Assembly (NCBI GenBank): GCA_907163375.1
Contig: CAJQUW010005287.1
Location: forward strand, 1-64,000
Source of the DNA: Prostheceraeus crozeri
Taxonomy: Eukaryota; Platyhelminthes; Polycladida; Euryleptidae
Direction of reading: 5' to 3'
DNA: 64,000 nt
The position numbers and the translations under genes were made by a program. The notes under the pieces are model-generated. The model saw only the letters and a program-made list of their open reading frames with translations. It made no database searches and was not told the DNA's origin. Below, piece by piece: positions 1 to 47,649 of this stretch (the first letter of the stretch is position 1; the number at the start of each line of letters is the position of its first letter).

Positions 1-30
1 AGATAGAGCCATTTTAAGTTTTCTTCCGAG

Positions 31-40
31 CATATATAAA
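31..40 (+). promoter_or_regulatory. TATA box, possible promoter of the Cys-rich gene
   Basis: The string catatataaa is followed about 40 bases later by a possible first exon ending in gacgag, then GTAAGC, a good splice donor at about 81. An acceptor-like tctcag sits two bases before the ATG at 632. A short leader exon and a 550-base intron would fit, but splicing is inferred only. Confidence 0.35.
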
Positions 41-372
41 CCCCCGACAACGTAAGTCTGATCACTTCATCGAAAGACGAGGTAAGCGACGGTCGTCGCT
101 CTGAGCTCCCGATATCGGGTGCAAAGGACTCTATCTTTTGAAGTAGGCAAGCTATCTTGCTACTTCAAAGTTTGTATGATAGAGTTTGATAGTGTCTTTA
201 CTACTGATAAAATTTTTTAAAAGTAGTATGAGTAGTAAAATGCGGAATTTTTTAAAAATTCTTAATTTTCACTTTTTTCAAAGTTTTAACATATAGACTA
301 AGGTTTTCAAGTATCCTGAGTTCAAATCTGCTATCAGATTTGAAATTTAACTAAGTCTAAGGCAGCTTTGAG

Positions 373-556
373 GGGTTAGATCCCAGCTACTGATCACTAC
401 CTTTGACTCGGCGTTCCTGTTACCACTTCGGGGCAGTGACAATGATGTCTTCAGCTGTAAAGAGCGGGTATCGGGGAAGATCTCTCACTTCCCTAGTGAT
501 CGGTACAAGGCCTTCGGGCTGTCGACGGGATCGAGTGCCACTCACTACACTCTTTA
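373..556. repeat. Module C, left-arm copy
   Basis: This GC-rich block matches 15,963-16,165 in reverse complement with few changes. It carries the family signature CGGCGTTCCTGTTACCACTT, related to modules A, B and D described on the right arm. Two frames are open across it, so it could be an exon or a structured RNA segment. It lies inside the putative leader intron of the Cys-rich gene. Confidence 0.7.
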
Positions 557-631
557 GGAATATGACTGTACTACATGATTCCAAACTTATACAAATTTCA
601 TTATCTTACAGTTAACGATAAAATCTCAGGC

Positions 632-1212
632 ATGGCCAATGACAAAAATAGAAAATATCATATCAAGATGTGCACATGTGGGCGAGTTAATCGCAGTGCG
701 GACGCCAAGGCTCATGTCAAGAAGGCGGGCACCGGCCACATGATTGTCTTGAATAGGGTTGCGTGCGTGAAGTGTAGAGTGCTGAAGGGTGATGAGGATG
801 AGGCGCGTTTTTACAGAGTGCATGCTGACTGTAGTGGTGGTTTAGTGACTGATTTGAGATTTACGCAGTTGATTGTGGAAGAGAGGGAGCGAATGTTGGC
901 GAATGTGCGAATGTGTGAAGTGTTGAGAATATTGTTGAGAATGTTGTTGAGAATGATGAGTTGGCGAGAGCGGTTGCGTCGTTGGAGGGTGAGATTGAGC
1001 GAAAGAGAGTGCTTGAGAGTGATGATGAGGATGATGTGGATTTAGATAGGGAGCGTGTGAGGAAGCGTGTGAGGAAGTTGAGCTCTTCGTCATCGGAGGT
1101 GTCCAACATCGTCATCACACACCCCCCATCGAACGAGCTCATCTTCCCCAAAGATGTGAAGAGTGGGATGAGTGGGATTCGATCGTGCAGATCGGCGAGG
1201 TGGTTGAGCTGA
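632..1212 (+). pseudogene. Cys-rich acidic/basic protein, frameshifted
   Basis: From ATG 632 the frame encodes a basic, Cys-containing domain with CTCG, CVKC and DCSGG motifs in the first 75 residues, which could bind zinc. After about position 918 the sensible reading moves to another frame (open to 1,212). That part encodes an acidic and basic coiled-coil-like tail with ESDDEDDVDLD, then an RKRVRKL basic stretch and a serine run. The switch looks like a one-base lesion or sequence error. The ATG is preceded by tctcaggc, an acceptor-like site. I do not recognise the family; a nuclear role is only a guess from the basic and acidic stretches. It has no counterpart in the right arm. Confidence 0.4.
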
Positions 1213-1220
1213 CTGAAGAG

Positions 1221-2150
1221 AAGAGGTCTATTTTTCGGCTCCAGATGGCGCATGATTTTGTTGGTTAATAAATCAGTACACTAGAGAGTTTGAAGAAATT
1301 ACACTAGGATGCAGTCTTGTGACTGAGAGTTGATAGTTGAATTAAGCAAGGTAAACTTGAAGTCGAAGGAGGTAGCGGATGAAAATATATTAGACTGAGG
1401 TGATCGTAGTGTACGACTGATCTTTGAAGAAAAAGACGCGACAGTTGGACAGAGAAAGCAATGAGGAGTGGTACTGGAGTCTCGAGAGGCGAGTACCCTG
1501 GAGCGGAGAGAACGCAATTAGAGATCAGAAGCGAAGATCTTGAGGAGTATTAGATGAAGGAGATCACATGAAAGAGTGATGTTGAGGTAGACGAGGAATG
1601 TTGAGTAGGTAGAGGACTGTGCTCGGGCGGCGGGGAAAGGGTTGGGGGCTGTGGGGAGGAAGGGGGGCGGAGTGGGTAGGGGGAGGAGGGGGGGGTCGTG
1701 CCGAGCGGGGGGGGCCGTTAGGTCTATGAAGAGGAGTGGGTGGGAGGGAGATTGGAGGTAGGGGTGGGGGCTGGGTGATGAGAGCAGCGTATAGAAAGAT
1801 TTGAGGGAGCGCGATGAGGAGGATAGTGGGAACGTGTGGAATGAGGCGATCTGAGTATTGTTTGCAGTATCTCCATCCCTATTCGGGATAGAATCCTATT
1901 TTTGGCCGGCGAGTAACACGTAAATCCAGAATTAGACGAATCCCTCCAATGCTTACCATGTCATTCCCACGAAAAAAAACTGCACCTCCAACAGCCAGCC
2001 TACGACTGCGCGCCCATTTCCACAAAATTTTCGATTCCGGAAAAACGCGCGAGACTGCCAAAGGTCAGACTATCTTGTAATATGACGGAAAGTACAATAA
2101 ATAGTATAGTCCTATTCTAATACATATACATTTTCAATTGCAGATCTTTG
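1221..2150. other. Gene-free purine-rich stretch
   Basis: No coding frame with recognisable content. The plus strand is strongly A/G-biased up to about 1,860, then becomes mixed. It has no right-arm partner. Confidence 0.5.
1623..1732 (+). other. G-rich tract with quadruplex potential
   Basis: Many runs of three to eight G occur within about 110 bases, separated by short spacers, enough for several overlapping G-quadruplexes on the plus strand. Confidence 0.6.
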
Positions 2151-2159
2151 CCCCCTTCA

Positions 2160-2345
2160 CCACCCCATCAATTCCACCATATCCCGTAGAACGACCATCG
2201 AGGTCTCTCGTTAAGGCCACCTAGAAGGCAGAGACCCTGATAGGCTACCTCCACGCGGTTTGCCTCTGGGCATTCTTCGGACCCTGCGATACTAGCTCTG
2301 ATAAGTTATTCTGAATCTGGTCTATCAATCAAACTTTGAACGTTA
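2160..2345. repeat. Spacer repeat upstream of CG1, left arm
   Basis: A degraded reverse-complement copy of about 15,345-15,480. It retains the pattern of a TGCCTCTGGGCA-type dyad, TCTTCGGAC and the ctgataag/ctatcaatc stretch. Related copies lie at 2,755-2,870 and 3,340-3,445 in this arm, and at 14,890-15,010 in the other. Confidence 0.6.
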
Positions 2346-2408
2346 ACGATTCACTTTAGAGGTATAATAACCAGTTTTCTACCGTGCTCATATTCATTTC
2401 ATTCAATC

Positions 2409-2690
2409 ATGGAGACGCCAAACGCATGCGCATCAACTCTCCTCGCGGACTAGCAGTAAGCCGAAATTTCTATTTTGAGGAGTTTTTCACAGCCTAGAGG
2501 AGCAAGACCAGAGTTTTTTAATAAACTTGCTCGAGTGCGAATCCGGCTTGCACAGCAACTGCTGTCCAAACCAACGAACACTGGCGTCACACCATTCCAC
2601 TTTCGTTAGTCACGTGCCAATTAGACGTGGAAGTCGACAGTGGCACACCAAAGAGAGAGTCAAAGAATCTCTCAGCAGAATTGTGAGTCA
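2409..2690 (+). pseudogene. CG1 left-arm copy, decayed
   Basis: Starts at an ATG in the context atcATGgagacgcc and aligns with the 88-codon gene at 15,052-15,318, but frameshifts and stops interrupt it. A TATA-like gaggtataataa lies about 50 bases upstream. Just after the aligned end is CAGGGTAAGATG, which reads as a canonical splice donor. The right-arm copy has GTGTAAG at this place, so the original gene may have continued into a second exon. Confidence 0.65.
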
Positions 2691-3459
2691 GGGTAAGATG
2701 ACCGTTACTCACCAAATGAACCTGCGCGGCTCTCTTAAGAGCCACCAGTGAGGCAAGACATGTATAGAACCTCCTCAGCGGTTTCTAGCGCCCTGGGCCG
2801 GTCCGTCGCGGACACTGGCGCATACTATCTCATAGAGTCTGAATCGGCTGATCAGTCAACGTTGAACATTATGCAGTCGAGATTGCTATCCCTACAAGCG
2901 TCTCTGATTTCGTGTTGAGCATTCATTGTTGATAACCCTATATAAAGCTCCGAAGTAATTGTAACGCTTCTCATTCATTTTGAATTCACTGACGGAAAGC
3001 GACATCTGTGCCTAGACAACCAAAAATCCCCCCCGAACATCACCAGAGATGAAGCACCATCTCCCGCCATTCCACGGTTCGTCAATCCGTTCGGACGAGT
3101 GGGATGAGAGATGAGAAGAGAGGGGAAGAAATCAACGAGGATCGTTGGGACTGGATGAAGTGTGAGGACTCCAAATACCACCCGCATCCAAAGGTGACCA
3201 CGCAGTGTCTCCATACCGCCACGTGCGGTGTATAGGGTCTATGACAACTAACGTCATAAAGGTGTACCCATTGCACTATTCCTCCAATAGTCAATTTACA
3301 CACGGCCCCCCGAGAACGCAAGCCATCGCTCTCTTAAGGCCAGCACCATGGGGCAAGACATGATAGAACTCACTCCTCGCTGTTTGCCCTGGGCAGTCTT
3401 CGGACTGGCGAATATATCATTAAGTTGGAATCTGCTATCAAGTCAACTTGAACCGTTGC

Positions 3460-3700
3460 ACAATGGAAGTTCGGTGTAATACTTTCCTTTCGACGGGCGC
3501 GTTCCTGTAGAAGGGCGGCGGTGATAACCCGTAGCTATGTATACCGCAAGGGACATTCGGCAATGGTCATTTGTTAAACCTCTCTGCGTCATGTTTGCAA
3601 GTGATTGCCTCTGTCTCAACGTAGTATGCATTCGCGCCAGGGCGACATTTAGCCAACTGTCGAAGGTTGCCTAAAACTTTCCATTGCATACGTTATGAGA
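3460..3700. repeat. Module A, left-arm copy
   Basis: Reverse complement of about 14,690-14,890 with scattered single-base insertions. It contains the family signature around gacgggcgcgttcctg and the shared tctgtctcaacgtagtatgc segment. Confidence 0.7.
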
Positions 3701-3804
3701 ACCATGAGTTCTACCTGTCTCTATCAATGAGACGAATTGATGAATGGACTGAAATGGGAGGACACTCACGCGCCACACGCAACATAACACACTTCTCTCT
3801 TCCG

Positions 3805-4150
3805 TAGTCTAACAAGCTCTTTACACATGGATCGCAGTCGATTGCTATCCCTGTATCAGAAGTGTAAGCTATCTTAATTATATTTGACACTATTTTAATC
3901 TACCATCATCGTCCATATGAAATGATTTTTAGATTTACAAGTTAGACTAAGCGTGCTACTATTTCCAAATGAAAAAGTATACATGGTTAAATCATCCACT
4001 TAAGCCCATCCGTAGTCTAACAAGCTCTTTACACATGGATCGCAGTCGATTGCTATCCCTGTATCAGAAGTGTAAGCTATCTTAATATTATTTGACACTA
4101 TTTTAGTCTACCATCATTTCGTCCATATGAAATGATTTTAGGATTTACAA
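3805..4150. repeat. Tandem 207-bp duplication upstream of CG2, left arm
   Basis: The block beginning gtagtctaacaagctcttta occurs at about 3,805 and again at 4,012, each followed by the ctatccctgtatcagaagtg and ccatatgaaatgatttt segments. The same tandem pair sits in reverse at 14,222-14,560. Confidence 0.8.
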
Positions 4151-4210
4151 AACGGGTGATCCGTAACTAAGGGACCCGTTACTAAGGGTCGGGCCCCTTT
4201 AGAGGAATAT
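4150..4210 (+). promoter_or_regulatory. GGGTCC element and TATA box of CG2, left copy
   Basis: Three GGGACCC/GGGTC-type repeats (acgggtgatccgt, gggacccgttactaa, gggtcgggcccctttagag) precede aatatataag. This is the counterpart of 14,159-14,216. Confidence 0.6.
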
Positions 4211-4273
4211 ATAAGAAGGAGTTTGCAATGTAGATGAATATACGCGTTGAAGAAGGACTACTCAGATTACAAT

Positions 4274-4867
4274 ATGGCCAGAAGCCGGTGAAAGTAACGA
4301 TATCTACAACGTCAGCATCAACGTCAGCATTCAACGTCAGCTCACGTCAGATCTATTTTCTTCCCATTGCTTCGGGATCGGAGTACCTGACAATGGTGTA
4401 TCGAGATATTTCCCCCTTTTCGCTGGGGATGTGATCCTATCAGATAAGATATTCATAGTGTGGTGGTCAAGCGGGGGGATTGTGGTACCGACAGAGACTC
4501 ACATATTTCCAACTACGATTGACACCTTTTTATTTTACTAAATCACCTTGTATATCGTATACATTCAAGTCACGAATGACCCACGGAGAAGCCACTATAC
4601 ATGGAACGAGATGTGCCTATGTACGAAGGGGATGTAATTTTGGGGTACTCCCCTACACGAATGTGATTTTACGTCGTGCCCACCAGGATGGGTGGATGCT
4701 GGAAGGGTGGCACGGGGGCGTCTGTGGAAGTTGAACATCATTCAAAGCCACTCATGGACCCACCGTATGAGACGCAACGATTTCGTCTAGATGGTGAAGC
4801 AATGGATTCGTGTTCATTCCCAACGGATGGTACAGGAGACATTGATGAAGAGAGAGGTGATTTATAA
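4274..4867 (+). pseudogene. CG2 left-arm copy, frameshifted
   Basis: Aligns along its length with the intact 199-residue gene at 13,503-14,102. Frames change repeatedly because of single-base insertions, often in homopolymers: ttcccccttttc against ttccccttttc, and a lengthened G-run near 4,475. Both halves of the internal duplication are recognisable in pieces. The error pattern resembles unpolished long-read sequence as much as ordinary decay. Confidence 0.75.
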
Positions 4868-5072
4868 GGTCCTTTAGTGGAATAAGTGGGAATTTGTATT
4901 TCAATGAACTTTTTATGTATATATTGAATGAACTTTTATTAATAAACATGCCTTCATCACATGTGATCATTTTCCTTTGAGTCTAATAACTATAATGAAT
5001 AGGATGGTATTAGAAGAAGAATGGATTATGGGTTAAATAAGTTAAGTGAAAATAGATGGGAATATAATCATC

Positions 5073-5654
5073 ATGAGTGAAGGTTCCAGAGTGTGAGGTT
5101 CCAGAGTGTAGAGGTACGTTATCCAATACGTCATTGGAAAGGTAAATTTTGGAATATCACCGTACCATTCCAATTATTTCATGGAGACAAGCTATTTCAG
5201 AGACGACGAAAACTGTGTAGTGATTATCACGCCGTAACGATAGAATTGGAAAATGAAATAATTCCAACGTATATTGACACATTCTATTTTGCAGTAACAC
5301 CGACATATCAGCATCCTATTACAACCACGGTGGAGAAACCGAAAGAATGTCTTTATTTTGAAAACGTGATTTAATTTCCAATGTATGAAGGAGATGTAGT
5401 TATATCATGGAATCCTACAGGAAAACATGTAGTCGCGATCTCCAGGTAGAAAGCGTGAAGAAGGAGGAGGTTATGGCACGGGCTATGTATAATAGTATAT
5501 CAACATACTCCAGAAGTGTATAAAAACGACCCGAAATTGGACACGACGGATTTCGTTTGGATTATGGTTTTTGAGAGAAGAAGGTGTGGGTTCAGATTCT
5601 TCATACTGATACATTGACTGACATTGAATGGACGGGTGGCCAAAAACGAGGTGA
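5073..5654 (+). pseudogene. CG3 left-arm copy, frameshifted
   Basis: Starts at ATGAGTGAAGGTTCC and matches the intact gene at 12,789-13,343. It has an early frameshift, and a long piece is open between 5,093 and 5,374, covering the first repeat and the IDTFYF motif. The rest is broken by insertions, including one next to the ERD motif. Confidence 0.75.
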
Positions 5655-5747
5655 TTTCAGGGTCCCTGAAGGGGGGACCCATGAAGGGATCGGGTCCTTT
5701 GAGAGATGTATTAAGAGTGGATGAAAATGAGTGTTCACAATCATAAT

Positions 5748-5996
5748 CCTGGTAGAAACCAGAGAAGAGTTGAGAGTAAGGCAGCGTGCGGAATGAAGAC
5801 CATCAAAACAAATGATTGAAAGGATATAAGAGGAGAAGTCTATAAATCGAAGAATCCAGGACGATCAGGAGAGTGTGTTGGGACACATGCGACTTTGTGC
5901 TGCTGGGAAAGCGACGATAGTTGAGTCATCAACGAAATCAACATTATGGGAGAGATTGGATTGTGGAGGGACCGATAGAGGACCCGATACTTTTAG
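5748..5996 (+). pseudogene. CG4 left-arm copy, start codon lost
   Basis: Matches 12,457-12,696. The start ATG has become CTG (atcCTGgtagaaac), and small indels follow. The GGACCCGAT tail is kept, because it overlaps the next promoter. Confidence 0.7.
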
Positions 5997-6091
5997 AGGA
6001 CCAGATAATTTTGAGGACCCGATCCACTAAAAATGTATATAAATGACTTTTGGAAATCATTTACTTCATATTTAGGACTTGAGCTAGTGAA

Positions 6092-6590
6092 CAAGCCGAC
6101 GTTACGATTGATCCAACCTTTACCGGATTCGCATTCCCGAAGTGTTAGTGCCAGAGAGCGACGATGGAAGATGGCCAACTGATCTTCCGTCTGGATGGGG
6201 GGCATCGAGGCCGATTTGAGTGAATTGACTGATGAAGGACTTCCAGAGTTGGTGACGCCTACCCCGATGGACAATCTTCCTCCAAGGTTTTCACAGAGGA
6301 CATTACAACAGTTGGACAGATTTTTAAACTTCACCATCTTTCCAGTCGGACGAATTTTAGTGAAATGACGGATGAAGAGTGGGTGACGTACGAAAAGGAG
6401 AAGGAGAAGACGGGGAGATAATCACCCTAAACTGAGGCCGGATCTCCGGTGGTCCCATTCGGGATTACGTATGCTTATGCCCACAATTGCCGCATCGACA
6501 GTTTCATGGAGGCATTTCATCAGAATCACAATATACGCCGTGGAGGTGGATTTGGTGGATGAAGCGTTGGTGCATGCCATGATTGAACAG
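6092..6590 (+). pseudogene. CG5 left-arm copy, start codon lost
   Basis: Matches 11,862-12,359. The ATG is replaced by AAG (gaacAAGccgacg) and several indels break the frame. The acidic motifs and the SEMTDEEW segment are still readable. Confidence 0.7.
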
Positions 6591-6758
6591 TGTTTTCTCA
6601 TGATTTACTTTCTCATGATTACTTTCTCGTGTGTGCTTCTTCAATAAACTATACATGGTAAGCCTTGATTCTTTATGAATGAAAAGACTGCTAGTTTGGG
6701 GAGGGTAAGGTATGTAGAAGTTTAAGTAATCATAATACCATAGCAGATTGTATGAATC

Positions 6759-7115
6759 ATGCCATGTTATAGACGAAGACGAAGACGTCAGAGAGGGGGT
6801 ATTCTTTTCCCTTAGCGGGAATGCTTTGGTAAACACTTTTGCAGGAAACTATTACAAAAGGGTGTTTCACGACATATTAGCAAAGGAAAGCCGATTTAGA
6901 CGTATTACGCGAAAGCGCTATAGTAACAGTGAATGGAATGTTATTTATGACAATGCCATATTCGTACTAGACGAAGACGCAGGACGAAGGACGGACGTCA
7001 GAGGATTTCGGTCTTATCCATTTCAATTTTACCACGTTGTCCTTAATAAATAGTAATGCAAAGTAATGACACATCGAGATCATAGGTGCAGGTTCCTACA
7101 TTGCTGCATAGATTT
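6759..7115 (+). pseudogene. CG6-CG7 left-arm copies, decayed
   Basis: Both short Arg-rich genes are present in order, beginning at ATG 6,759 and ATG 6,953, matching 11,572-11,727 and 11,381-11,542. The CGA/AGA codon runs are interrupted by inserted bases (gacgcaggacgaaggacgg). As a result the frames fuse into an unrelated 101-codon reading frame that should not be taken as a gene. Confidence 0.7.
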
Positions 7116-7179
7116 GGGTGGACGAATAAGATTTACTAGTTTGCAATTTAGGACTAAGCGTTCTATTATTTGTAAATGA

Positions 7180-8455
7180 AAGATATAAAGTTTCAATAGT
7201 TAACACGTTAAAAATAAAGTTTCAATAGTGTGTATGTTAAGAATAAAGTTCTATCTGTTTCTATGTTAGAAATAAAATGAAGGTTCATCAGTTTACAAGT
7301 TAAGAATAAAGTTTTATCTGTTTGTATGTTAGACATAAAACAAAGTTTCAACCGTTAACAAGTTAAAAATAAAGTTTCAATAGTTTACAAGTTAAAACTA
7401 ATGTTTCAATAGTGCGTATGTTAAGAATAAAGTTTTATCTGTTTCTATGTTAGAAATAAAATGAAGCTTCACCAGTTTACAAGTTAAGAATAAAGTTTTA
7501 TCAGCTTGTATGTTAGAAATAAAATGAAGTTTCACCAGTTTACAATTTAAAAATAAAGTTTCAATAGTGTGTACGTTAGAAATAAAGTTTCAACCGTTTA
7601 CAAGTTGAAAAATAAAGTTTTAACAGTGTCTACGTTAGAAATAAAGTTTTATCTGTTGTAAAGTACGATCGTAGGATTTACTAGTTGCAAGTTAGACTCA
7701 GCATTCTACTAGTTGTAAATGAAAATATCGTTTCAACAGTTTACAGATTAAAATAAACTTTTAACAGTGTGTACGTTAGAAATAAAGTCTTAGCTGTTTA
7801 TATGTTAGAAACAAAATAAAGTTTCAACAGTTTACAAGTTGAAAAATAAAGTTTCAACAGTGTGTACGTTAGAAATAAATGAAAGTAAAAACTTCATCGT
7901 ATGAGTATTCAAAGCATGTTTTGTAAATCAAATGTGTGTAGTCCTGACATGATAGAATCGCGTTAGAAATAAAGTTTCAGCCGTTTACAAGTTAAAAATA
8001 AAGTTTCAACGGTGTGTACGTTAGAAATAAAGTTTTAGCTGTTTATATGTTAGAAACAAAATAAAGTTTCAACAGTTTACAAGTTGAAAAATAAAGTTTC
8101 AACAGTGTGTACGTTAGAAATAAATGAAAGTAAAAACTTCATCGTATGAGTATTCAAAGCATGTTTTGTAAATCAATTGTGTGTAGTCCTGACATGATAG
8201 AATCGCGTTAGAAATAAAGTTTCAGCCGTTTACAAGTTAAAAATAAAGTTTCAACGGTGTGTACGTTAGAAATAAAGTTTTAGCTGTTTATATGTTAGAA
8301 ACAAAATAAAGTTTCAACAGTTTACAAGTTGAAAAATAAAGTTTCAACAGTGTGTACGTTAGAAATAAATGAAAGTAAAAACTTCATCGTATGAGTATTC
8401 AAAGCATGTTTTGTAAATCAATTGTGTGTAGTCCTGACATGATAGAATCAAACTT
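7180..8455 (+). repeat. AATAAA-bearing minisatellite, left arm
   Basis: Units of about 29-31 bases alternate between a TTTACAAGTTAAAAATAAAG form and a GTACGTTAGAAATAAAGTTT form. Almost every unit carries AATAAAG on the plus strand, the same sense as the left-arm genes that run into it. Near the centre the units are organised in a higher-order repeat of about 243 bases that includes gagtattcaaagcatg and agtcctgacatgatagaa. Confidence 0.9.
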
Positions 8456-8495
8456 GACAAAACGCGTTTGTCAAGCTTAATTCTATCATGTCAGG
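8440..8495. other. Dyad centre of the giant palindrome
   Basis: The sequences tcctgacatgatagaat and attctatcatgtcagga flank AACTTGACAAAACGCG and TTTGTCAAGCTT. This gives a nearly perfect hairpin around CGCG at 8,463-8,466, with a one-base offset and one mismatch. Confidence 0.9.
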
Positions 8496-11340
8496 ACTAC
8501 ACACAATTGATTTACAAAACATGCTTTGAATACTCATACGATGAAGTTTTTACTTTCATTTATTTCTAACGTACACACTGTTGAAACTTTATTTTTCAAC
8601 TTGTAAACTGTTGAAACTTTATTTTGTTTCTAACATATAAACAGCTAAAACTTTATTTCTAACGTACACCGTTGAAACTTTATTTTTAACTTGTAAACGG
8701 CTGAAACTTTATTTCTAACGCGATTCTATCATGTCAGGACTACACACATTTGATTTACAAAACATGCTTTGAATACTCATACGATGAAGTTTTTACTTTC
8801 ATTTATTTCTAACGTACACACTGTTGAAACTTTATTTTTCAACTTGTAAACTGTTGAAACTTTATTTTGTTTCTAACATATAAACAGCTAAAACTTTATT
8901 TCTAACGTACACACCGTTGAAACTTTATTTTTAACTTGTAAACGGCTGAAACTTTATTTCTAACGCGATTCTATCATGTCAGGACTACACACATTTGATT
9001 TACAAAACATGCTTTGAATACTCATACGATGAAGTTTTTACTTTCATTTATTTCTAACGTACACACTGTTGAAACTTTATTTTTCAACTTGTAAACTGTT
9101 GAAACTTTATTTTGTTTCTAACATATAAACAGCTAAAACTTTATTTCTAACGTACACACTGTTAAAAGTTTATTTTAATCTGTAAACTGTTGAAACGATA
9201 TTTTCATTTACAACTAGTAGAATGCTGAGTCTAACTTGCAAACTAGTAAATCCTACGATCGTACTTTACAAACAGATAAAACTTTATTTCTAACGTAGAC
9301 ACTGTTAAAACTTTATTTTTCAACTTGTAAACGGTTGAAACTTTATTTCTAACGTACACACTATTGAAACTTTATTTTTAAATTGTAAACTGGTGAAACT
9401 TCATTTTATTTCTAACATACAAGCTGATAAAACTTTATTCTTAACTTGTAAACTGGTGAAGCTTCATTTTATTTCTAACATAGAAACAGATAAAACTTTA
9501 TTCTTAACATACGCACTATTGAAACATTAGTTTTAACTTGTAAACTATTGAAACTTTATTTTTAACTTGTTAACGGTTGAAACTTTGTTTTATGTCTAAC
9601 ATACAAACAGATAAAACTTTATTCTTAACTTGTAAACTGATGAACCTTCATTTTATTTCTAACATAGAAACAGATAGAACTTTATTCTTAACATACACAC
9701 TATTGAAACTTTATTTTTAACGTGTTAACTATTGAAACTTTATTTTTAACCTGTAAACGGTTGAAACTTTGTTTTAATTCTAACATACAAGCAGATAAAA
9801 TTTATTCTTAACTTGTAAACTGGCGAAACTTCATTTTATTTCTAACATATAAACAGATAGAACTTTATTCTTAACGTACACAATGTTGAAACTTTATTTT
9901 TAACGCACAAAGCGCTTAAACTTTATTTCCATCATACACACTATTGAAACTTTATTTTAATCTGAAACTTTATTTTTAACTTGTTAACGGTTGAAACTTT
10001 GTTTTATGTCTAACATACAAACAGATAAAACTCTATTATTAACTTGTAAACTGATGAAACTTCATTTTATTTCTAACATAGAAGCAGATAGAACTTTAAT
10101 CTTAACATACACACTATTGAAACTTTATTTTATTTTTAACATACAAACAGCTAAAACTTTATTTTATGTCTAACATACAAACAGATACAACTTTATTATT
10201 AACTTGTAAACTGATGAAACTTCATTTTATTTCTAACATAGAAGCAGATAGAACTTTATTCTTAACATACACACTATTGAAACTTTATTTTTAACGTGTT
10301 AACTATTGAAACTTTATTTTTAACTGTATACGGTTGAAAACCGGTTTTTAATTCTAACATACAAACAGATAAAACTTTATTCTTAACATACACACTATTG
10401 AAACTTTATTTCTAACGTACACACTATTGAAACTTCATTTTTAACTTGTAAACTGGTGAAACTTTATTTCATTTCTGACATACAAGCAGATAAAACTTTA
10501 TTCTTAACTTGTAAACTGGTGAACCTTCATTTTTATTTCTAACATATAAACAGATAGAACTTTATTCTTAACATATACACTATTGAAACTTCATTTTTAA
10601 CTTGTAAACGGTTGAAACTTTGTTTTAATTCTAACATACAAGCAGATAAAATTTATTCTTAACTTGTAAACTGGCGAAACTTCATTTTATTTCTAACATA
10701 GAAACAGATAAAACTTTATTCTTAACATACGCACTATTGAAACATTAGTTTTAACTTGCAAACTATTGAAACTTTATTTTTAACTTGTTAACGGTTTAAA
10801 CTTTGTTTTATTTCTAACATACAAACAGATAAAACTTTATTCTTAACTTGTAAACTGATGAACCTTCATTTTATTTCTAACATAGAAACAGATAGAACTT
10901 TATTCTTAACATACACACTATTGAAACTTTATTTTTAACGTGTTAACTATTGAAACTTTATTTTTAACCTGTAAACGGTTGAAACTTTGTTTTAATTCTA
11001 ACATACAAGTAGATAAAATTTATTCTTAACTTGTAAACTGGCGAAACTTCATTTTATTTCTAACATATAAACAGATAAAACTTTATTCTTAACATACGCA
11101 CTATTGAAACATTAGTTTTAACTTGTAAACTATTGAAACTTTATTTTTAACTTGTTAACCGTTGAAACTTTGTTTTATTTCTAACATACAAACAGATAAA
11201 ACTTTATTCTTAACTTGTAAACTGATGAAACTTCATTTTATTTCTAACATACAAACAGATAGAACTTTATTCTTAACATACACACTATTGAATTTTTATT
11301 TTTAACGTGTAAACTATTGAAACTATATCTTTCATTTACA
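8496..11340 (-). repeat. AATAAA-bearing minisatellite, right arm
   Basis: Reverse-complement continuation of the left array. Units read CTTTATTTTTAACTTGTAAA on the plus strand, so AATAAA lies on the minus strand, the sense of the right-arm genes. The first 800 bases mirror the left arm almost exactly, including the 243-base higher-order unit. The outer part is about 1.6 kb longer than the left array and more varied. Short open frames here are artefacts of the repeat. Confidence 0.9.
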
Positions 11341-11380
11341 AATAATAGAACGCTTAGTCTAAATTGCAAACTAGTAAATC

Positions 11381-11542
11381 TTATTCGTCACCAAATCTAT
11401 GCAGCAATGTAGGACCTGCACCTAGATCTCGATGTGTCATTACTTTCATTACTTTATTAAGGACACGTGGTAAAATTGAAATGATAAGACCACCCCTCTG
11501 ACGTCGTCTTCGTCTTCGTCTTCGTCTAGTACGATATGGCAT
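11381..11542 (-). CDS. CG7, Arg-rich 53-residue peptide
   Basis: From ATG 11,542 the frame starts MPYRT, then nine consecutive arginines, RQRGG-type residues and a hydrophobic stretch, ending GDE. An ATG two codons upstream (11,548) is possible, but the chosen one aligns with CG6. The two genes share the plan MP-aromatic, poly-Arg, QRGG, hydrophobic segment, so they are tandem paralogues. Small Arg-rich peptides with a hydrophobic centre resemble the DNA-condensing core peptides of adenovirus-like viruses (mu/pX type). That is an analogy of composition, not a proven homology. It is the last gene before the AATAAA array, which can supply its polyadenylation site. The Arg run is encoded by an AGACGA repeat. 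Confidence 0.6.
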   Translation of the reverse strand: MPYRTRRRRRRRRRQRGGLIISILPRVLNKVMKVMTHRDLGAGPTLLHRFGDE

Positions 11543-11571
11543 TGTCATAATAACATTCCATTCACTGTTAC

Positions 11572-11727
11572 TTAGCGCTTTCGCTTAATACGTCTAATGG
11601 CTTTCCTTGCTATATGTCGTGAAACACCCTTTGTAATAGTTCCTGCAAAATGTTTACCAAGCATTCCCGCTAGAGGTAAAAGAATACCCCCTCTCTGACG
11701 TCTTCGTCTTCGTCTATAACATGGCAT
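11572..11727 (-). CDS. CG6, Arg-rich 51-residue peptide
   Basis: From ATG 11,727 the peptide begins MPCY, then six arginines, QRGG, a hydrophobic LLPLAGMLG segment, a middle with H and K, and a basic C-terminus RRIKRKR. It ends 30 bases before the CG7 start, so the two may share a transcript. The bipartite basic, hydrophobic, basic arrangement suits a nucleic-acid-binding or membrane-active peptide; a virion core or nuclear-localised role is inferred. The gene is too short for ordinary gene finding, but it is supported by the paralogue and by the decayed left-arm copy at 6,759. Confidence 0.6.
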   Translation of the reverse strand: MPCYRRRRRRQRGGILLPLAGMLGKHFAGTITKGVSRHIARKAIRRIKRKR

Positions 11728-11816
11728 GATTCATACAATCTGCTATGTATATGATTACTTAAACTTCTACATCCCATACCCTTTCATTCAAAAGAATCAA
11801 GGCTTACCATGTAAGT

Positions 11817-11822
11817 TTATTG
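11817..11822 (-). terminator. Poly(A) signal after CG5
   Basis: AATAAA on the minus strand, 40 bases beyond the CG5 stop codon. Confidence 0.6.
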
Positions 11823-11861
11823 AAGAAGCACACACGAGAAAGTAAATCATGAGAAAGTAAA

Positions 11862-12359
11862 TCATGAGAAAACACTGTTCATATCAATGGCATGCACCAA
11901 CGCTTCATCCACCAAATCCACCTCACGTCGTATATTTGATTCTGATGAAATGCGTCCATGAAACTGTCGATGCGGCAATTGTGGGATAAGCATACGTAAT
12001 CCCAATGGGACCACCGGAGATCCTGCCCTCGAGTTAGGTGGATTATTCTCCTTCTCCTTCTCCTTTTCGTACGTCACCCACTCTTCATCCGTCATTTCAC
12101 TAAAATTCGTCCGACTGGAAGATGGTGAATTTAAAAATCTGTCCAACTGTGTAATGTCTGGTGAAAACCTTGGAGGAAGATTGTCCATCGGGGTAGGCGT
12201 CACCAACTCTGGAAGTCCTTCATCAGTCAATTCACTCAAATCGGGCCACGATCCCCATCCAGACGGAAGATCAGTTGGCCAGTCTTCCTCGTCGCTCTCT
12301 GGCACTAACACTTCGGGAATGCGAATCCGTAAAGGTTGGATCATCGTTACGTCGGGCAT
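11862..12359 (-). CDS. CG5, acidic 165-residue protein
   Basis: Starts MPDVTMIQ at 12,359, 49 bases downstream of a TATA box. An upstream in-frame ATG (12,365) is less likely to be used than this one, but cannot be excluded. Residues 18-60 are acidic and Pro/Trp-rich (ESDEEDWPTD). There are two related segments, SELTDEGL (42-49) and SEMTDEEW (87-94), then a charged EKEKEKENN run and a moderately basic C-terminal half. No membrane segment or enzyme motif is visible. Acidic composition with repeated short motifs would suit a transcriptional activator or adaptor, but I do not recognise a family. Three GGTCCTCTAAAAGGTATC-type repeats lie just upstream of its TATA box, and a poly(A) signal follows. 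Confidence 0.65.
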   Translation of the reverse strand: MPDVTMIQPLRIRIPEVLVPESDEEDWPTDLPSGWGSWPDLSELTDEGLPELVTPTPMDNLPPRFSPDITQLDRFLNSPSSSRTNFSEMTDEEWVTYEKEKEKENNPPNSRAGSPVVPLGLRMLIPQLPHRQFHGRISSESNIRREVDLVDEALVHAIDMNSVFS

Positions 12360-12407
12360 GTTCACTAGCTCAAGTCAAAATATGAAGTAAATGATTTCAA
12401 AAGTCAT

Positions 12408-12487
12408 TTATATACAGTTTTTAGTGGATCGGGTCCTCTAAAAGGTATCAGGTCCTCTAAAAGGTATCGGGTCCTCTATCGGGTCCC
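12408..12487 (-). promoter_or_regulatory. CG5 promoter: TATA plus repeated GGGTCC element
   Basis: Minus-strand TATATAAATG is preceded by four copies of a GAGGACC(C/T)GAT motif spaced about 20 bases apart: at 12,428-12,440, 12,448-12,460 and 12,467-12,480, with a fourth just beyond. The copies overlap the last codons of CG4. Confidence 0.7.
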
Positions 12488-12696
12488 TTCCACAATCCAT
12501 CTCTCCAATAATTTGATTGTCGTTGATGACTCACTATCGTCGCTTTCAGCACAAAGTCGCATGTGTCCTCACACTCTCTGATCTTCTCTGGATTCTTCGA
12601 TTTATAGGCTCTCCTCTTATATCTTTCAATCATTTGTTTGATGGTCTTCATCTCCTCACGCTGCCTTACTCTCAACTCTTCTCTTGTTTCTACCAT
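12457..12696 (-). CDS. CG4, 79-residue basic helical protein
   Basis: Start MVETREEL at 12,696, the first ATG after the TATA box at 12,729-12,735. The body is a charged helix (about residues 3-35) followed by a segment with two cysteines (ECEDTCDF). The C-terminus WKGPDRGPDTF is encoded by the GGACCCGAT repeats that also form the CG5 promoter, so coding and regulatory sequence overlap. No family recognised. Confidence 0.55.
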   Translation of the reverse strand: MVETREELRVRQREEMKTIKQMIERYKRRAYKSKNPEKIRECEDTCDFVLKATIVSHQRQSNYWRDGLWKGPDRGPDTF

Positions 12697-12728
12697 GATT
12701 ATGATTGTGACACTCATTTCATCCACTC

Positions 12729-12785
12729 TTATATACATCTCTCAAAGGACCCGATCCCTTCATGGGTCCCCTTCAGGGGACCCTG
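12729..12785 (-). promoter_or_regulatory. CG4 promoter: TATA plus GGGTCC dyads
   Basis: Minus-strand GTATATAAG is preceded by GGGTCCTTTGAGAG, CATGAAGGGATCGGGTCC and GGGGACCC copies within 45 bases. The element starts right after the CG3 stop codon. Confidence 0.65.
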
Positions 12786-12788
12786 AAA

Positions 12789-13343
12789 TCACCTCGTTTG
12801 TCCACCCGTCCATTCAATGTCAGTCAATGTATCAGTATGAAGAATCTGAACCCACACCTTCTTCTCAATATCCAAACGAAATCGTCGTGTCAATTTCGGT
12901 CGTTTATACACTTCTGGAGTATGTTGATATACTATATACATAGCCCGTGCCAAACCTCCTCCATCTTCACGCTTTCTACCTGGAGAACGTCGAATACATG
13001 TTTCTGTAGGATTCCATGATATAACTACATCTCCTTCATACATTGGAATGTAATCACGTTCAAAATAAAGACAGTCTTTCGGTTTCTCCACCGTTGTTGT
13101 AATTGGATGCTGATATGTCGGTGTTACTTCAAAATAGAATGTGTCAATATACGTTGGAATTATTTCATTTTCCAATTCTATCTTACGGCGTGATATCACT
13201 ACACAGTTCTTCGTCTCTGAAATTATCTTGTCTCCATGAAATAATGGAATGGTACGGTGATATTGCCAAAATTTACCTTTCCAATGACGTATTGGATAAC
13301 GTACCTCACACTCTGGAACCTCACACTCTGGAACCTCACTCAT
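12789..13343 (-). CDS. CG3, 184-residue duplicated-domain protein
   Basis: Start at ATG 13,343 (MSEVPECEV), about 35 bases after a TATA box; an in-frame GTG farther upstream is not a likely start. The N-terminus has a tandem PECEV repeat encoded by a 15-base duplication. The protein has an internal duplication: TIPLFHGDKII (31-41) and YIPMYEGDVVI (98-108), each followed by a beta-rich stretch and an Arg-containing segment. It is a clear paralogue of CG2, sharing IDTFYF, EKP, ERD and RFRLD at matching places. No catalytic motif is visible. A beta-sandwich structural or binding protein is likely from the pattern, but no family is recognised. Confidence 0.7.
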   Translation of the reverse strand: MSEVPECEVPECEVRYPIRHWKGKFWQYHRTIPLFHGDKIISETKNCVVISRRKIELENEIIPTYIDTFYFEVTPTYQHPITTTVEKPKDCLYFERDYIPMYEGDVVISWNPTETCIRRSPGRKREDGGGLARAMYIVYQHTPEVYKRPKLTRRFRLDIEKKVWVQILHTDTLTDIEWTGGQTR

Positions 13344-13376
13344 GATGATTATATTCCCATCTATTTTCACTTAACT

Positions 13377-13387
13377 TATTTATACCC
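13377..13387 (-). promoter_or_regulatory. CG3 TATA box
   Basis: Minus-strand GGTATAAATAA lies about 35 bases before the start codon. Unlike CG2, CG4 and CG5, no GGGTCC element precedes it. Confidence 0.55.
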
Positions 13388-13463
13388 ATATCCATCTTCT
13401 TCTAATACCATCCTATTCATTATAGTATAACTCAAAGGAAAATGATCACATGTATGAAGTATG

Positions 13464-13469
13464 TTTATT
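13464..13469 (-). terminator. Poly(A) signal after CG2
   Basis: AATAAA on the minus strand, about 35 bases past the CG2 stop codon, inside a short T/A-rich region. Confidence 0.6.
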
Positions 13470-13502
13470 CAATAAAAGTTCATTCAATATATACATAAAA
13501 GT

Positions 13503-14102
13503 TCATTGAAATACAAATTCTCCACTTATTTCACTAAAGGACTTATAATCACCTCTCTCTTCATCAATGTCTCTGTACCATCCGTTGGGAATGACACGAA
13601 TCCATGCTTCACCATCTAGACGGAATCGTTGCGTCTCATACGGTGGGTCCATGAGTGGCTTTGAATGATGTTCAACTTCCACATACGCCCCCATCCACCT
13701 TCCATCATCCACCCATCCTGGTGCACGACGTATCATCATTCTTGTAGGGGAGTACCCCAGAATTACATCCCCTTCGTACATAGGCACATCTCGTTCCATG
13801 TATAGTGGCTTCTCCGGTGGGTCATTCGTACTTGAATGTATACGATATACAGGTGATTTAGTAAAATAAAAAGTGTCAATCGTAGTTGGAAATATGTGAG
13901 TCTCTGTCTGTACCACAGCCCGCTTGACCACCACACATGATATCTTATCTGATAGGATCACATCCCCAGCGAAAAGGGGAATATCTCGATACACCATTGC
14001 AGGTACTCGATCCCGAAGCAATGGGAAGAAAATAGATGCTGACGTTGATGCTGACGTTGATGCTGACGTTGTAGATATCGTTACTTCACCGGCTACTGCC
14101 AT
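13503..14102 (-). CDS. CG2, 199-residue duplicated-domain protein
   Basis: Starts MAVAGEVTIS at 14,102, the first good ATG after the TATA box. Residues 11-23 are a Ser/Thr/Ala repeat encoded by a nine-base unit. The core contains two similar halves, with RDIPLFAGDVIL (39-50) and RDVPMYEGDVIL (104-115) about 65 residues apart, each followed by a basic stretch. IDTFYF lies between them and RFRLD near the end. It is a tandem paralogue of CG3. The pattern of alternating hydrophobic residues suggests an all-beta fold. I do not recognise the family; capsid, decoy and receptor-binding roles are all untested possibilities. It is intact here and broken in the left arm. Confidence 0.7.
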   Translation of the reverse strand: MAVAGEVTISTTSASTSASTSASIFFPLLRDRVPAMVYRDIPLFAGDVILSDKISCVVVKRAVVQTETHIFPTTIDTFYFTKSPVYRIHSSTNDPPEKPLYMERDVPMYEGDVILGYSPTRMMIRRAPGWVDDGRWMGAYVEVEHHSKPLMDPPYETQRFRLDGEAWIRVIPNGWYRDIDEERGDYKSFSEISGEFVFQ

Positions 14103-14158
14103 ATTGTATCTGAGTAGTCTTCTTCAACGGTATAATTCATCTACATTCAAACTCCTTC

Positions 14159-14216
14159 TTATATATTCTCTAAAGGGGCCCGACCCTTAGTAACGGGTCC
14201 CTTAGTTACGGGACCC
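14159..14216 (-). promoter_or_regulatory. CG2 promoter: TATA plus GGGTCC repeats
   Basis: Minus-strand ATATATAAG is preceded by GGGTCGGGCCCCTTTAGAG and two GGGACCCGTTACTAAG-like repeats. Confidence 0.65.
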
Positions 14217-14221
14217 GTTTG

Positions 14222-14560
14222 TAAATCTAAAAACATTTCATATGGACGATGATGGTAGATAAAATAGTGTCAAATAAATTAAGATAGCTTACACTTCTGA
14301 TACAGGGATAGCAATCGACTGCGATCCATGTGTAAAGAGCTTGTTAGACTATGGATGGGCTTAAGTGGATGATTTAACCATGTATACTTTTTCATTTGGA
14401 AATAGTAGCACGCTTAGTCTAACTTGTAAATCTAAAAACATTTCATATGGACGATGATGGTAGATAAAATAGTGTCAAATAAATTAAGATAGCTTACACT
14501 TCTGATACAGGGATAGCAATCGACTGCGATCCATGTGTAAAGAGCTTGTTAGACTACGGA
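14222..14560. repeat. Tandem 205-bp duplication upstream of CG2, right arm
   Basis: The block from taaatctaaaaacatttcat to aagagcttgttagactac is present twice, starting near 14,222 and 14,428. It mirrors 3,805-4,150. Confidence 0.8.
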
Positions 14561-14689
14561 AGAGAGAAGTGTGTTATGTTGCGTGTGGCGCGTGAGTGTC
14601 CTCCCATTTCATTCCATTCATCAATTCGTCTCATTGATAGAGACAGGTAGAACTCATGGTTCTCATAACGTATGCAATGGAAAGTTTTA

Positions 14690-14895
14690 GGCAACCTTCG
14701 ACAGTTGGCTAAATGTCGCCCTGGCGCGAATGCATACTACGTTGAGACAGAGGCAATCACTTGCAAACATGACGCAGAGAGGTTTAACAAGATTGACCAT
14801 TGCCGAATGTCCCTTGCGGTATACATAGCTACGGGTTTCACCGCCGCCCTTTACAGGAACGCCCGTCGAAAGGAAGTATTACACCGAACTTCATT
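14690..14895 (-). repeat. Module A (right arm), possible exon or structured RNA
   Basis: Contains, on the plus strand, tactacgttgagacag, aacatgacgcagagaggttt and ttacaggaacgcccgtcgaa with aggaagtattacac. Modules B and D share these in the same order and C shares part. On the minus strand a frame is open through most of it. It is flanked by ctgatagcagattcaactta-type AT-rich dyads. Confidence 0.6.
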
Positions 14896-15015
14896 TGCAA
14901 CGTTCAAGTTGACTGATAGCAGATTCAACTTAATGATAGTATTCGCCAGTCCGAAGACTGCCCAGGGCAAACCGCGAGGAGGTTCTATCATGTCTTGCCC
15001 CATGGTGGCCCTTAA
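14895..15015. repeat. Spacer repeat with gactgcccagggca, copy 1
   Basis: The segment gactgatagcagattcaact to tcatgtcttgccccatggtg recurs at 15,374-15,480 with few changes, and in the left arm. Confidence 0.8.
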
Positions 15016-15051
15016 GAGAGCCGATGGTTCGTTCTCGGGAGTAACGTCATC

Positions 15052-15318
15052 TTACACCCTACCAATTCTGCTGAGAGAGTCAAAGACTCTCTCTTTGGTA
15101 GCACTGTCGACTTCCACACTAACTGGTACATGGCTAAAAAGTGGAATGTAGCGCCATTCCGTTGGATTGGCAGCAGTTGCTGTCATCGGATTGCCAATCC
15201 GAGCAAGATTATTAAAAACTCTGTCTTGCTCCTCTAGCCTGACAAACTCCTCAAATAAATTTCGCGGCCTTAACTGCGGTCCGCGAGGAGAGCTGACTTG
15301 ACTGTTCGGCGTCTGCAT
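15052..15318 (-). CDS. CG1, 88-residue protein with an internal repeat
   Basis: Starts MQTPNSQVS at 15,318, about 30 bases after a TATA box. Two related segments, DRVFNNLARIG (about 33-43) and ERVFDSLSRIG (about 76-86), enclose a Pro/Ser-containing centre. The frame stops right after the second repeat, where the left-arm copy shows a GGTAAGAT donor. The gene may therefore once have been, or may still be, spliced to a module downstream. No family recognised. Confidence 0.5.
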   Translation of the reverse strand: MQTPNSQVSSPRGPQLRPRNLFEEFVRLEEQDRVFNNLARIGNPMTATAANPTEWRYIPLFSHVPVSVEVDSATKERVFDSLSRIGRV

Positions 15319-15345
15319 GATTGAAATGAAATGAGAGGCAGTGGT

Positions 15346-15353
15346 TTATATAC
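15346..15353 (-). promoter_or_regulatory. CG1 TATA box
   Basis: Minus-strand GGGTATATAAACC about 30 bases before the CG1 start codon. Confidence 0.65.
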
Positions 15354-15373
15354 CCCTCTAATGCGACGCAACG

Positions 15374-15480
15374 TTCAAGTTGACTGATAGCAGATTCAAC
15401 TTAATGATAGTATTCGCCAGTCTAAAGACTGCCCAGGGCAAAGCGCATTGAAGGCTCTATCATGTCTTGCCCCATAGTGG
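15374..15480. repeat. Spacer repeat with gactgcccagggca, copy 2
   Basis: Second copy of the block at 14,895-15,015; it lies directly upstream of the CG1 promoter. Confidence 0.75.
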
Positions 15481-15654
15481 CCGATTATACGGTAGTGTGT
15501 TAGTAGATTTCAATCATTGAAAAGGGAAGATGAGAATCATTTCATTTGTCTCATCAACGTTTATCATGGGAACAATCATTGAAGGGACATCTAATGAATT
15601 ACATTTCACTCTACTCCATATCATAAAGACTAACCTTTGTCGAATGGCTGAAGT

Positions 15655-15860
15655 ACTCTGACCTGGCGAGAGAAAGCGTCACGTTGAGTATGAAGTCGAA
15701 CGCCCAACATGAGCAACGGCTCAGAGGTTTCGGTCTAACAAACGACGAACAACCCGTGCAACACAATCCCTCTACGGCAGTACCCGCCGTCCCGAAGGAA
15801 CGCTCGAGCAAAGGAGGTATTACAGCGATGATGTGCTTTATGAGTAGAAGTGAATCTCTT
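15655..15860 (-). repeat. Module B (right arm only)
   Basis: Shares with D the plus-strand strings cccaacatgag, ggtttcggtct or ggttacggtct, cgccgtcccgaaggaac and tattacagc. On the minus strand a frame open from 15,880 to 15,611 encodes SCWAFD-like and LNV residues. A similar series can be read in D in one frame, which favours coding origin. It is followed by cttgatagcaagagactatt dyads. Confidence 0.6.
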
Positions 15861-15962
15861 GATAGCAAGAGACTATTCAACTAGATAGCAAGTCAAAAAT
15901 AACCTGATAGCAGGACAAATGTATAGTCAGTAATTTACACTTAGTGAGGAATGATAGATTTG

Positions 15963-16165
15963 AGTGTAGTGAGTGGCACTCGATCCCGTCGACAGCCCGA
16001 AGGCCTTGTACTGATCACTAGGGAAGTGAGAGATCTTCCCCGATACCCGCTCTTTACAGCTGAAGACATCATTGTCACTGCCCCGAAGTGGTAACAGGAA
16101 CGCCGAGTCAAAGGTAGTGAACAGTAGCTGGGATCTAACCCCTCAAAGCTGCCTTAGTCTTAGTT
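15963..16165 (-). repeat. Module C (right arm)
   Basis: Counterpart of 373-556. It shares with A, B and D only the ccgaag-aacaggaacgcc-aaaggtagt portion. Long open frames cross it on the minus strand in two phases. It is followed by the dyad aaatctgatagcagattt. Confidence 0.65.
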
Positions 16166-16329
16166 GAATTTGAAATCTGATAGCAGATTTGAACTTCGCA
16201 TACTTGAAAACCTTGAGGAAACATCCCAAGTTGTTGCTTTGATCAGCTTGATAGCAAGCCGTAGAGAGCTTGATTCACCAGCGTTTTGCAATGGAGATGT
16301 TTAGAGGCCACCCATGACAAGATAGCTAA

Positions 16330-16515
16330 GACTCAACCGATTGGCGTTCAAAGTGCTACGTTGAGAGCTGTGTCAAATGCCCAACATGAGACATGAGTTG
16401 TCCCAGCGGTTACGGTCTTAAATATGACACATTCCCTTGCCACACTTATCACTACGGCATCGTCCGCCGTCCCGAAGGAACACCCTGTCAGTGGAATATT
16501 ACAGCAAAACTCTCC
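16330..16515 (-). repeat. Module D (right arm, outermost)
   Basis: Plus-strand signatures gctacgttgagagctg, cccaacatgagacatgag, cggttacggtctta and ccgtcccgaaggaacacc align with B. Its outer edge has no left-arm partner, so the palindrome ends between C and D. Confidence 0.6.
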
Positions 16516-16900
16516 GTGTCTTGCTCGCTTTCAGTGAAAAGCCGCTTATACCATGAGAAGACTGGCTCAGACATCATTAAAAATGCTTTCATTGACTTCA
16601 GCAGGGTCGAAAACCCCAGAAAACCTCCAAAACTAGTGAATTTAAAATTTTCAACTTTTTAGCACTACTTATGAAATTTTATAAGTAGTCCATCACTTAG
16701 GGCAGGTCAATAGCGACCGAACCTTTTTTGAATCAAGTCAAACGGACTTGTAGAAGCAAAGTTACGAGCCTTTAAAGTTTTGGAGTCTTTTATGGCCTGG
16801 AGACGAAGGCCATCTCCTGGCGAACCTCTAAGTCTGACGCCTTAGCTGATATCAGCAATGAAATTTTCTAAGTCGGTTTCTTACAGAAACTTGGAATTTG
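16516..16900. other. Gene-free stretch
   Basis: No coding signal or recognisable repeat; AT-rich, lying between the palindrome and the satellite block. Confidence 0.4.
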
Positions 16901-16919
16901 GAATGTCCGAAGCTATCAT

Positions 16920-19560: not shown

Positions 19561-19604
19561 TACGGTGAATCCGAATCTGGCAGCCATTTCACCATCCACG
19601 ACAA

Positions 19605-19705: not shown

Positions 19706-19729
19706 CCAACTCACTCGAGTCTCACACTC

Positions 19730-19895: not shown

Positions 19896-19911
19896 GCCGG
19901 TCGAGTGTTTG

Positions 19912-47645: not shown

Positions 47646-47649
47646 TTAA

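Follow-up and report, generated by a model that had tools for sequence, protein, structure and literature searches.

A multi-copy palindromic element of the flatworm Prostheceraeus crozeri, probably a satellite of a same-ended Maverick, with predicted ribozymes behind histone-type stem-loops

The window analyzed here, a stretch of 64,000 nt from the polyclad flatworm Prostheceraeus crozeri (contig CAJQUW010005287.1, hereafter C4395), starts at base 1 of its contig and opens with one copy of a palindromic element (Table 1). A long inverted repeat (3309-8376 on the left with 15039-10156 on the right, 88.8% identity) and an outer inverted pair of 253 bp (300-552 and 15962-16214, 96.8% identity) face each other across a 5-nt loop at 8462-8466, and 118 of the 120 bases flanking this loop are mirrored. 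The genes point towards the centre, and the right arm carries seven intact open reading frames (ORFs), CGa to CGg, on its minus strand; coding sequence accounts for 2,259 of the 2,722 bp from CGb to CGg. Outside 3309/15039 the two arms are unlike in content; the outer part of the right arm is rearranged, and no match to two further genes of the element, Z and X, was seen in that arm. The original prediction for this region, made from the letters alone, had described an inverted repeat with genes facing a common centre, as found here. It had set the limit of the element at 16220, short of the actual right end at 19927, and had taken the minisatellites to be terminal, whereas those at 7-11 kb are central and the subterminal repeats lie at about 17.1-19.4 kb. 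The right terminus adjoins a decayed copy of a Polinton ATPase gene, and the DNA beyond it matches a Polinton farther along the window at 70.7% over 413 columns.

When the 2.05-Gb host genome was searched with CGe, 226 candidates were obtained and all 40 that were scored proved 100% identical, with the window's own error-rich left copy falling outside these 40. The scored matches place a plus/minus pair on 16 contigs, always convergent and 4.5-7.5 kb apart, and a single match on 8 others. The loci examined comprise parts of six (17 pieces), together with a single 10-kb stretch from C10595 and another from C130. Sought in this way, the gene cassette is found in dispersed copies, with both arms of the six loci 99.1-100% identical to the window's right arm over the inner gene block (7 of the 12 arms at 100%, 5 at 99.1-99.9%); a second comparison, of six chosen arms, gave 0 mismatches over 2.5-2.8 kb, and C10595 gave 1 mismatch. 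Within five loci the arms mirror each other, the main matches being 99.7% in C7994, 99.8% in C3127, 98.9% in C4255, and 96.8% in C650, with C9732 patchier. The central motif of the palindrome is present at six of seven other loci, and 118-119 of 120 bases are mirrored in four of them; at the C4255 and C10595 centres 46 of 120 are mirrored. Subterminal repeats differ among the copies. It should be noted that an own-genome search with the 118-bp ribozyme stretch described below, by a method that skips very common words, returned no candidates despite existing copies. Near-identity of this kind would be consistent with recent spread through the host genome, homogenization by conversion being an alternative cause.

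At six loci the boundary of the element begins 5'-AGTAGTAAGC. A palindrome with the same terminus occurs at seven other loci, five of which were read at both ends and two (C1869 and C9732) at one end each, and copies bounded at both ends measure 22.5-24.4 kb. Identical 6-bp flanks stand at both ends in C7994 (22,620 bp), C3127 (23,629 bp), and C4255 (23,658 bp), and an identical 6-mer was seen by eye at both ends of C10595, which has 24,440 bp between its ends and an interior that was partly read. The 6-bp target duplication thus tallies at four of the five loci read at both ends. Target duplications of 5-6 bp are given for Mavericks in an excerpt of PMC8547959; as a mark of a non-autonomous Maverick/Polinton, such a duplication is present at these four loci, and C650 deviates.

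The same ends also occur on an element with a different interior. The terminal 642 bp, used as a query against the host genome, gave 2,833 candidates, and among the 41 matches listed a pair in C130 (324074 and 347392), 23.3 kb apart, bounds this element; identity to the ends of the palindrome is 99% over 642 bp at both ends. Within the 10 kb of C130 that were read, a protein matches rve (1.3e-10) and Chromo (6.2e-7), both above Pfam cut-offs, and matches below cut-off include Adeno_PX (0.0026), Peptidase_C48 (0.0012), Peptidase_C5 (adenovirus protease, 0.045), and Pox_A32 (0.026). A C130 protein of 428 amino acids (aa) without a Pfam match is one that we take to be hexon-like. From these similarities the C130 element is likely a Maverick/adintovirus helper and would be autonomous; because the ends are shared, the palindrome would stand to it as satellite to helper. 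Autonomous Mavericks/Polintons carry an rve integrase, PolB, an ATPase, and a double-jelly-roll capsid, the set carried by the window's Polinton. In the palindrome, 12 sequences (10 distinct ORFs, smaller and antisense ORFs left out) yielded no Pfam family at cut-off, and no mobility, polymerase, or capsid gene was recognized among its listed ORFs. The arms are mirrored, the terminus is constant, 6-bp duplications occur, the gene blocks of dispersed copies are 99-100% alike, and the ends are those of the rve-chromo element C130; together these findings argue that the region is probably one copy of a multi-copy palindromic mobile element of 22.5-24.4 kb, a non-autonomous satellite of a same-ended Maverick/adintovirus.

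Table 1. Features of the palindromic element in the window (C4395) and of the C7994 left arm
Feature	Positions	Strand	Remarks
Palindromic element, window copy	1..19927		left end missing: contig starts there
Central loop	8462..8466		5 nt, mirrored flanks
Right terminus	19918..19927	-	GCTTACTACT; inner flank homologous to C7994 terminal region
Subterminal tandem repeats, right arm	17074..19445		about 17.1-19.4 kb
CGa	15052..15318	-	88 aa; TATA 34 nt upstream
CGb	13503..14102	-	199 aa; internal repeat of ~30 residues
CGc	12789..13343	-	184 aa; paralogue of CGb
CGd	12457..12738	-	up to 93 aa; TATA box overlaps first ATG
CGe	11862..12359	-	165 aa, acidic, isoelectric point 4.4
CGf	11572..11727	-	51 aa, Arg-rich core-like peptide; same protein in C7994
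CGg	11381..11548	-	55 aa, Arg-rich core-like peptide; same protein in C7994
HDV-like ribozyme R1 (predicted)	14933..15001	-	P1 7 bp, P2 7 bp, P3 3 bp, P4 5 bp, J4/2 GCGAA
Histone-type stem-loop	15007..15022	-	ends 5 nt before predicted cleavage site; 6-bp stem, 4-nt loop
Ribozyme R2 (predicted)	15404..15473	-	diverged in P3/L3/L4; stem-loop decayed
Central array, left half	7185..8461	+	30 AATAAA in gene sense, 0 antisense
Central array, right half	8467..11342	-	72 AATAAA in gene sense, 0 antisense
Gene Z, 5' part	575..1045	+	error-rich left arm; intact 396-aa copy at L012:6628-7818
Stem-loop and ribozyme	2728..2829	+	own model 27.8 bits, E 7e-6; Histone3 19.3 bits, below gathering
Stem-loop and ribozyme	3318..3428	+	own model 107.3 bits; the copy itself is one of the model's three rows
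C7994 left arm, gene Z	172628-173818		ribozyme at 173956
C7994 left arm, CGa	174115-174381		ribozyme at 174430
C7994 left arm, gene X	174646-174897		ribozyme at 174950

The genes of the element encode proteins without recognized relatives. In the window, TATAWAW lies 34-63 nt upstream of four of the seven right-arm genes (CGa, CGb, CGc, and CGe), against 9.5% of random positions with such a box within 70 nt; for CGd it lies 18 nt upstream only if the second ATG is the start, and because the TATA box overlaps the first ATG, CGd probably starts further in. CGb and CGc are paralogues with 40% identity, and the internal repeat of CGb was reached in 0 of 1,000 shuffles, that of CGc being weaker (4 of 1,000). 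CGf and CGg have RRRRRRQRGG in common (0 of 1,000 shuffles), and the shorter RRQRGG recurs in a C130 core-like protein; CGf and CGg probably serve as core peptides in the virion, in the manner of protein X. Downstream of the third ribozyme, that of gene X, the clean left arm of C7994 continues with CGb, CGc, CGd, CGe, CGf, and CGg in this order, making nine genes with Z (396 aa), CGa, and X (83 aa). In C10595 (L038:1-2105), gene X stands in tandem with a match to the stem-loop/ribozyme stretch behind each copy, and the number of units varies. A hairpin with a 6-bp stem and a 4-nt loop was seen by eye at 12763-12788, directly 3' of the CGc stop; it overlaps a GGACCC box, and such a box also precedes CGb, CGd, and CGe.

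Against Pfam, PHROG, and NCBIfam the eight window ORFs gave weak or below-cut-off matches only, and four further ORFs of C7994 gave none at the curated cut-off of Pfam. A sequence search of the PDB with CGb/CGc, CGf, and CGg only found nothing below E 0.29, and a collection of 5.8 billion proteins, for which the queries were limited to CGb/CGc, CGe, and the ORF at 575-1045, returned the window's own CGc and CGe alone, on contigs no longer than 5,447 bp. Scans of viral contigs, genome contigs, and phage and plasmid records gave no useful match. The original prediction had anticipated much of this: most genes have their own TATA box, the tandem paralogues and the Arg-rich core-like peptides are present, and the genes are compact, virus-like, and unrecognized. 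Its seven genes in both arms are intact in the right arm, the left frames being broken, and it missed Z and X. Of the checks it proposed, profile searches gave no match at cut-off to known families, and structure predictions for CGb and CGc came out low (mean predicted local distance difference test, pLDDT, 34 and 36).

Behind CGa lies R1, a predicted ribozyme with the layout of hepatitis delta virus (HDV): P1, a P2 pseudoknot, P3/L3, P4, and a catalytic J4/2. A descriptor requiring all helices picked out R1 and R2 as its two sites in the 64 kb; 30 block-shuffled windows, searched on both strands, yielded 0. A permissive Rfam scan of 17.3 kb matched HDV at 14933-15001 on the minus strand (E 0.23), and the remaining 46.7 kb of the window gave no HDV match in Rfam at E up to 2. 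In a search of 801 bases, two HDV models matched R1 end to end (27.5 bits, E 0.086; 26.5 bits, E 0.011); the 7-bp P2 of R1 is a helix left unpaired in both models, and its L3, UCCUCGC, agrees with the HDV consensus. R1 and R2 differ in 8 of 70 columns, all of them within the 19 columns of P3/L3/L4 (P = 8e-6, for a region picked post hoc). On the 17 fetched pieces the descriptor found 30 ribozyme copies of 2 distinct sequences, and in 30 of 30 the same stem-loop ends 5 nt before the cut. The arms of the six loci scanned have two to three ribozymes each. All three units of C7994 are matched, below gathering, by the Rfam models for HDV and Histone3, and the predicted cut there falls 48-137 nt 3' of the stop codon, with more genes of the element beyond. 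A 50-aa ORF at 14851-15003, with a Kozak-like ATG over R1, was considered and rejected as a gene, since the R2 version stops after 17 aa and shares no more than the first 8 residues. A non-coding module of about 200 nt also occurs in four diverged copies (14640-14880, 15665-15910, 15962-16214, and 16340-16560), three of which are predicted to fold alike as RNA, with both partners changed in 5 pairs; the module may be an RNA or promoter element.

The double-pseudoknot layout and the L3 sequence are shared with the HDV-like ribozymes of retrotransposons, Chilo iridescent virus, and CPEB3 (as excerpted from PMC8256844), whereas those of the element stand behind coding genes and directly 3' of a histone-like stem-loop. 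That stem-loop resembles the 3' ends of replication-dependent histone mRNA in its 6-bp stem, 4-nt loop, ACC after the stem, and predicted end 5 nt on, an excerpt of PMC6303110 placing the major cut of histone mRNA 5 nt after the stem-loop. It differs in that the cut would be made by a ribozyme, the genes are not histones, and the loop is CUUA where the model has UUUA.

The other genes end differently. The clean arm of C7994 has two gene classes: three genes (Z, CGa, and X) with stem-loop and ribozyme, and six that precede an AATAAA-rich array, which suggest two expression modes. In five of the six fetched loci each half of the array has 50-66 AATAAA in gene sense and 0 antisense. In the window, AATAAA or ATTAAA occurs within 200 nt of the stop of CGb, CGe, CGf, and CGg and not of CGa, CGc, and CGd; transcripts of CGc and CGd may read through to the signal of CGe.

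The left arm of the window has the gene order of the right arm with broken reading frames. Compared with the right arm it shows insertions in 103 events and deletions in 16 (an alignment-end gap among the latter), and 68 of its 201 substitutions, some of which are alignment slips, are transitions; for a Polinton fragment of the window that decayed naturally, the figures are 2 insertion and 4 deletion events and 119 transitions among 231 substitutions. Because this insertion excess is unlike natural decay in the same window, the broken frames look like sequence error at the contig start.

An insertion-biased arm at a contig start is also what would be seen if a folded-back long read had mirrored one arm in the assembly. 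Against such an artefact stand the convergent CGe pairs on 16 contigs, the mirrored outer arms at five loci, the identical end 6-mers at four of five loci, and the unlike content of the window's own arms outside 3309/15039; it is the least probable of the explanations weighed here and is refuted as a general one by the other loci, and it may still distort the window copy. Nearly as improbable is a concatemer junction or end region of an integrated, hairpin-ended large DNA virus of pox- or asfar-like kind, which would account for a palindromic centre with tandem-repeat flanks and genes pointing there. The unit is bounded outside by constant ends, mostly with target duplications, and no core virus gene was recognized in it; a junction was rejected in the absence of any outward continuation into a virus genome with core genes. 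The large-virus end region or integrated head-to-head dimer named in the original prediction is likewise not supported, given seven other loci with the same terminus, 6-bp duplications standing at four of five.

Subterminal repeats that vary between copies, and C650 with its two end variants and no duplication, would also fit an independent palindromic transposon family whose Maverick ends came through a later exchange and whose movement depends on a different enzyme. Since the ends match those of an element that itself encodes an rve integrase, and duplications of 6 bp fit that class, this origin has a slim chance. As for the ribozymes, they could be remnants of a retrotransposon 5' end (of the R2/RTE kind) without a role in gene ends, HDV-like ribozymes being known at retrotransposon 5' ends (excerpt of PMC8256844). 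That all 30 copies follow one stem-loop with an unvarying spacing of 5 nt, and that cuts in C7994 fall 48-137 nt past a stop codon with further element genes beyond, makes this unlikely, if the least so of the four alternatives.

Several observations weigh against a Maverick satellite with ribozyme-made mRNA ends. At C650 (22,543 bp) the end 6-mers differ and the two ends are different variants. No good palindrome centre was found by script at C9732, whose array, cut at its midpoint, has 40 and 54 sense AATAAA in its halves and 13 antisense in the left one. Most Pfam matches of C130 are under cut-off, no polymerase gene was found within the 10 kb read, and CGf and CGg are only weakly similar to core-like proteins of C130, with a composition bias in the comparison (best z 5.2 among 135 pairs). 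R1 falls under Rfam gathering (27.5 of 50 and 26.5 of 44 bits), as do the stem-loops with Histone3 (18.1-19.3 of 34 bits, that of R1 at 18.1), and R2 is without an Rfam match and has a decayed stem-loop. Covariation finds no support in the pair counts (the both-side-changed count is reached in 112 of 500 shuffles, with noisy alignment rows), and pseudoknot-free folding gives ordinary values (z -0.95 and -1.28). The number of ribozymes varies: each arm of C4255 has 2, as does the left arm of C9732.

As a Maverick satellite, the reading preferred here, the element would be inserted by the helper's integrase and replicated by helper proteins from its two identical ends, behaving as a palindromic defective genome that retains the ends of its helper. 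The six inner genes run into dozens of sense AATAAA ahead of the centre, an array that may stop read-through into the mirror arm and so avoid a giant hairpin RNA. Because the predicted cleavage site lies exactly 5 nt past the stem-loop, the mRNAs of Z, CGa, and X are probably cut by the ribozyme and would keep the stem-loop instead of poly(A). Whether the whole model holds, namely that a palindromic Maverick satellite makes histone-type non-poly(A) ends with its own ribozyme, that the stem-loop-binding protein of the host could serve its messages with neither U7 nor poly(A), and that poly(A) signals shield the mirror arm, we consider evenly balanced.

Other mobile elements lie farther along the window. 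A 94.6% copy of the C130 end is found at 31419-33258, a fragment of a C130-type Maverick interrupted at 33259 by a different, apparently autonomous Polinton (33259-50855) with ends AGTAGTATATAG and differing 6-mers outside them (CCTATT / CTGGTG). This Polinton encodes an A32-like ATPase, a PolB with three in-frame 30-bp repeats at 41518-41610, a double-jelly-roll capsid, and an rve integrase fused to a phospholipase A2-like domain. A non-LTR-type (long terminal repeat) reverse transcriptase, a mariner-type transposase, and an ORF without a Pfam match that is presumably hAT-like (25047-28115, 58005-59288, and 60799-61920) are ordinary host repeats.

With Mavericks/Polintons and adintoviruses the palindrome shares terminal inverted repeats, 6-bp duplications, Arg-rich core-like peptides, and the ends common to C130; unlike them it is a single palindrome over its whole length, no integrase, polymerase, ATPase, or capsid gene is recognized in it, and its genes have no known relatives. 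Among adenoviruses, symmetric recombinant genomes such as Ad12 SYREC are palindromic derivatives that retain the ends of their helper, and the present element is alike in this respect, whereas it is genomic and multi-copy and has its own repeated genes. Long palindromes are generally viewed as unstable, and a mobile, near-identical, gene-bearing palindrome of 23 kb is at odds with that view. Neither a ribozyme behind a histone stem-loop nor a palindromic Maverick turned up in the literature searched. The element would give Maverick viruses a natural satellite, and its candidate helper is present in the host genome as well. According to an excerpt of PMC6303110, no metazoan mRNA other than that of histones is known to end in a stem-loop; if the ribozyme and stem-loop ends of the element are real, they would constitute a second route to stem-loop mRNA ends.

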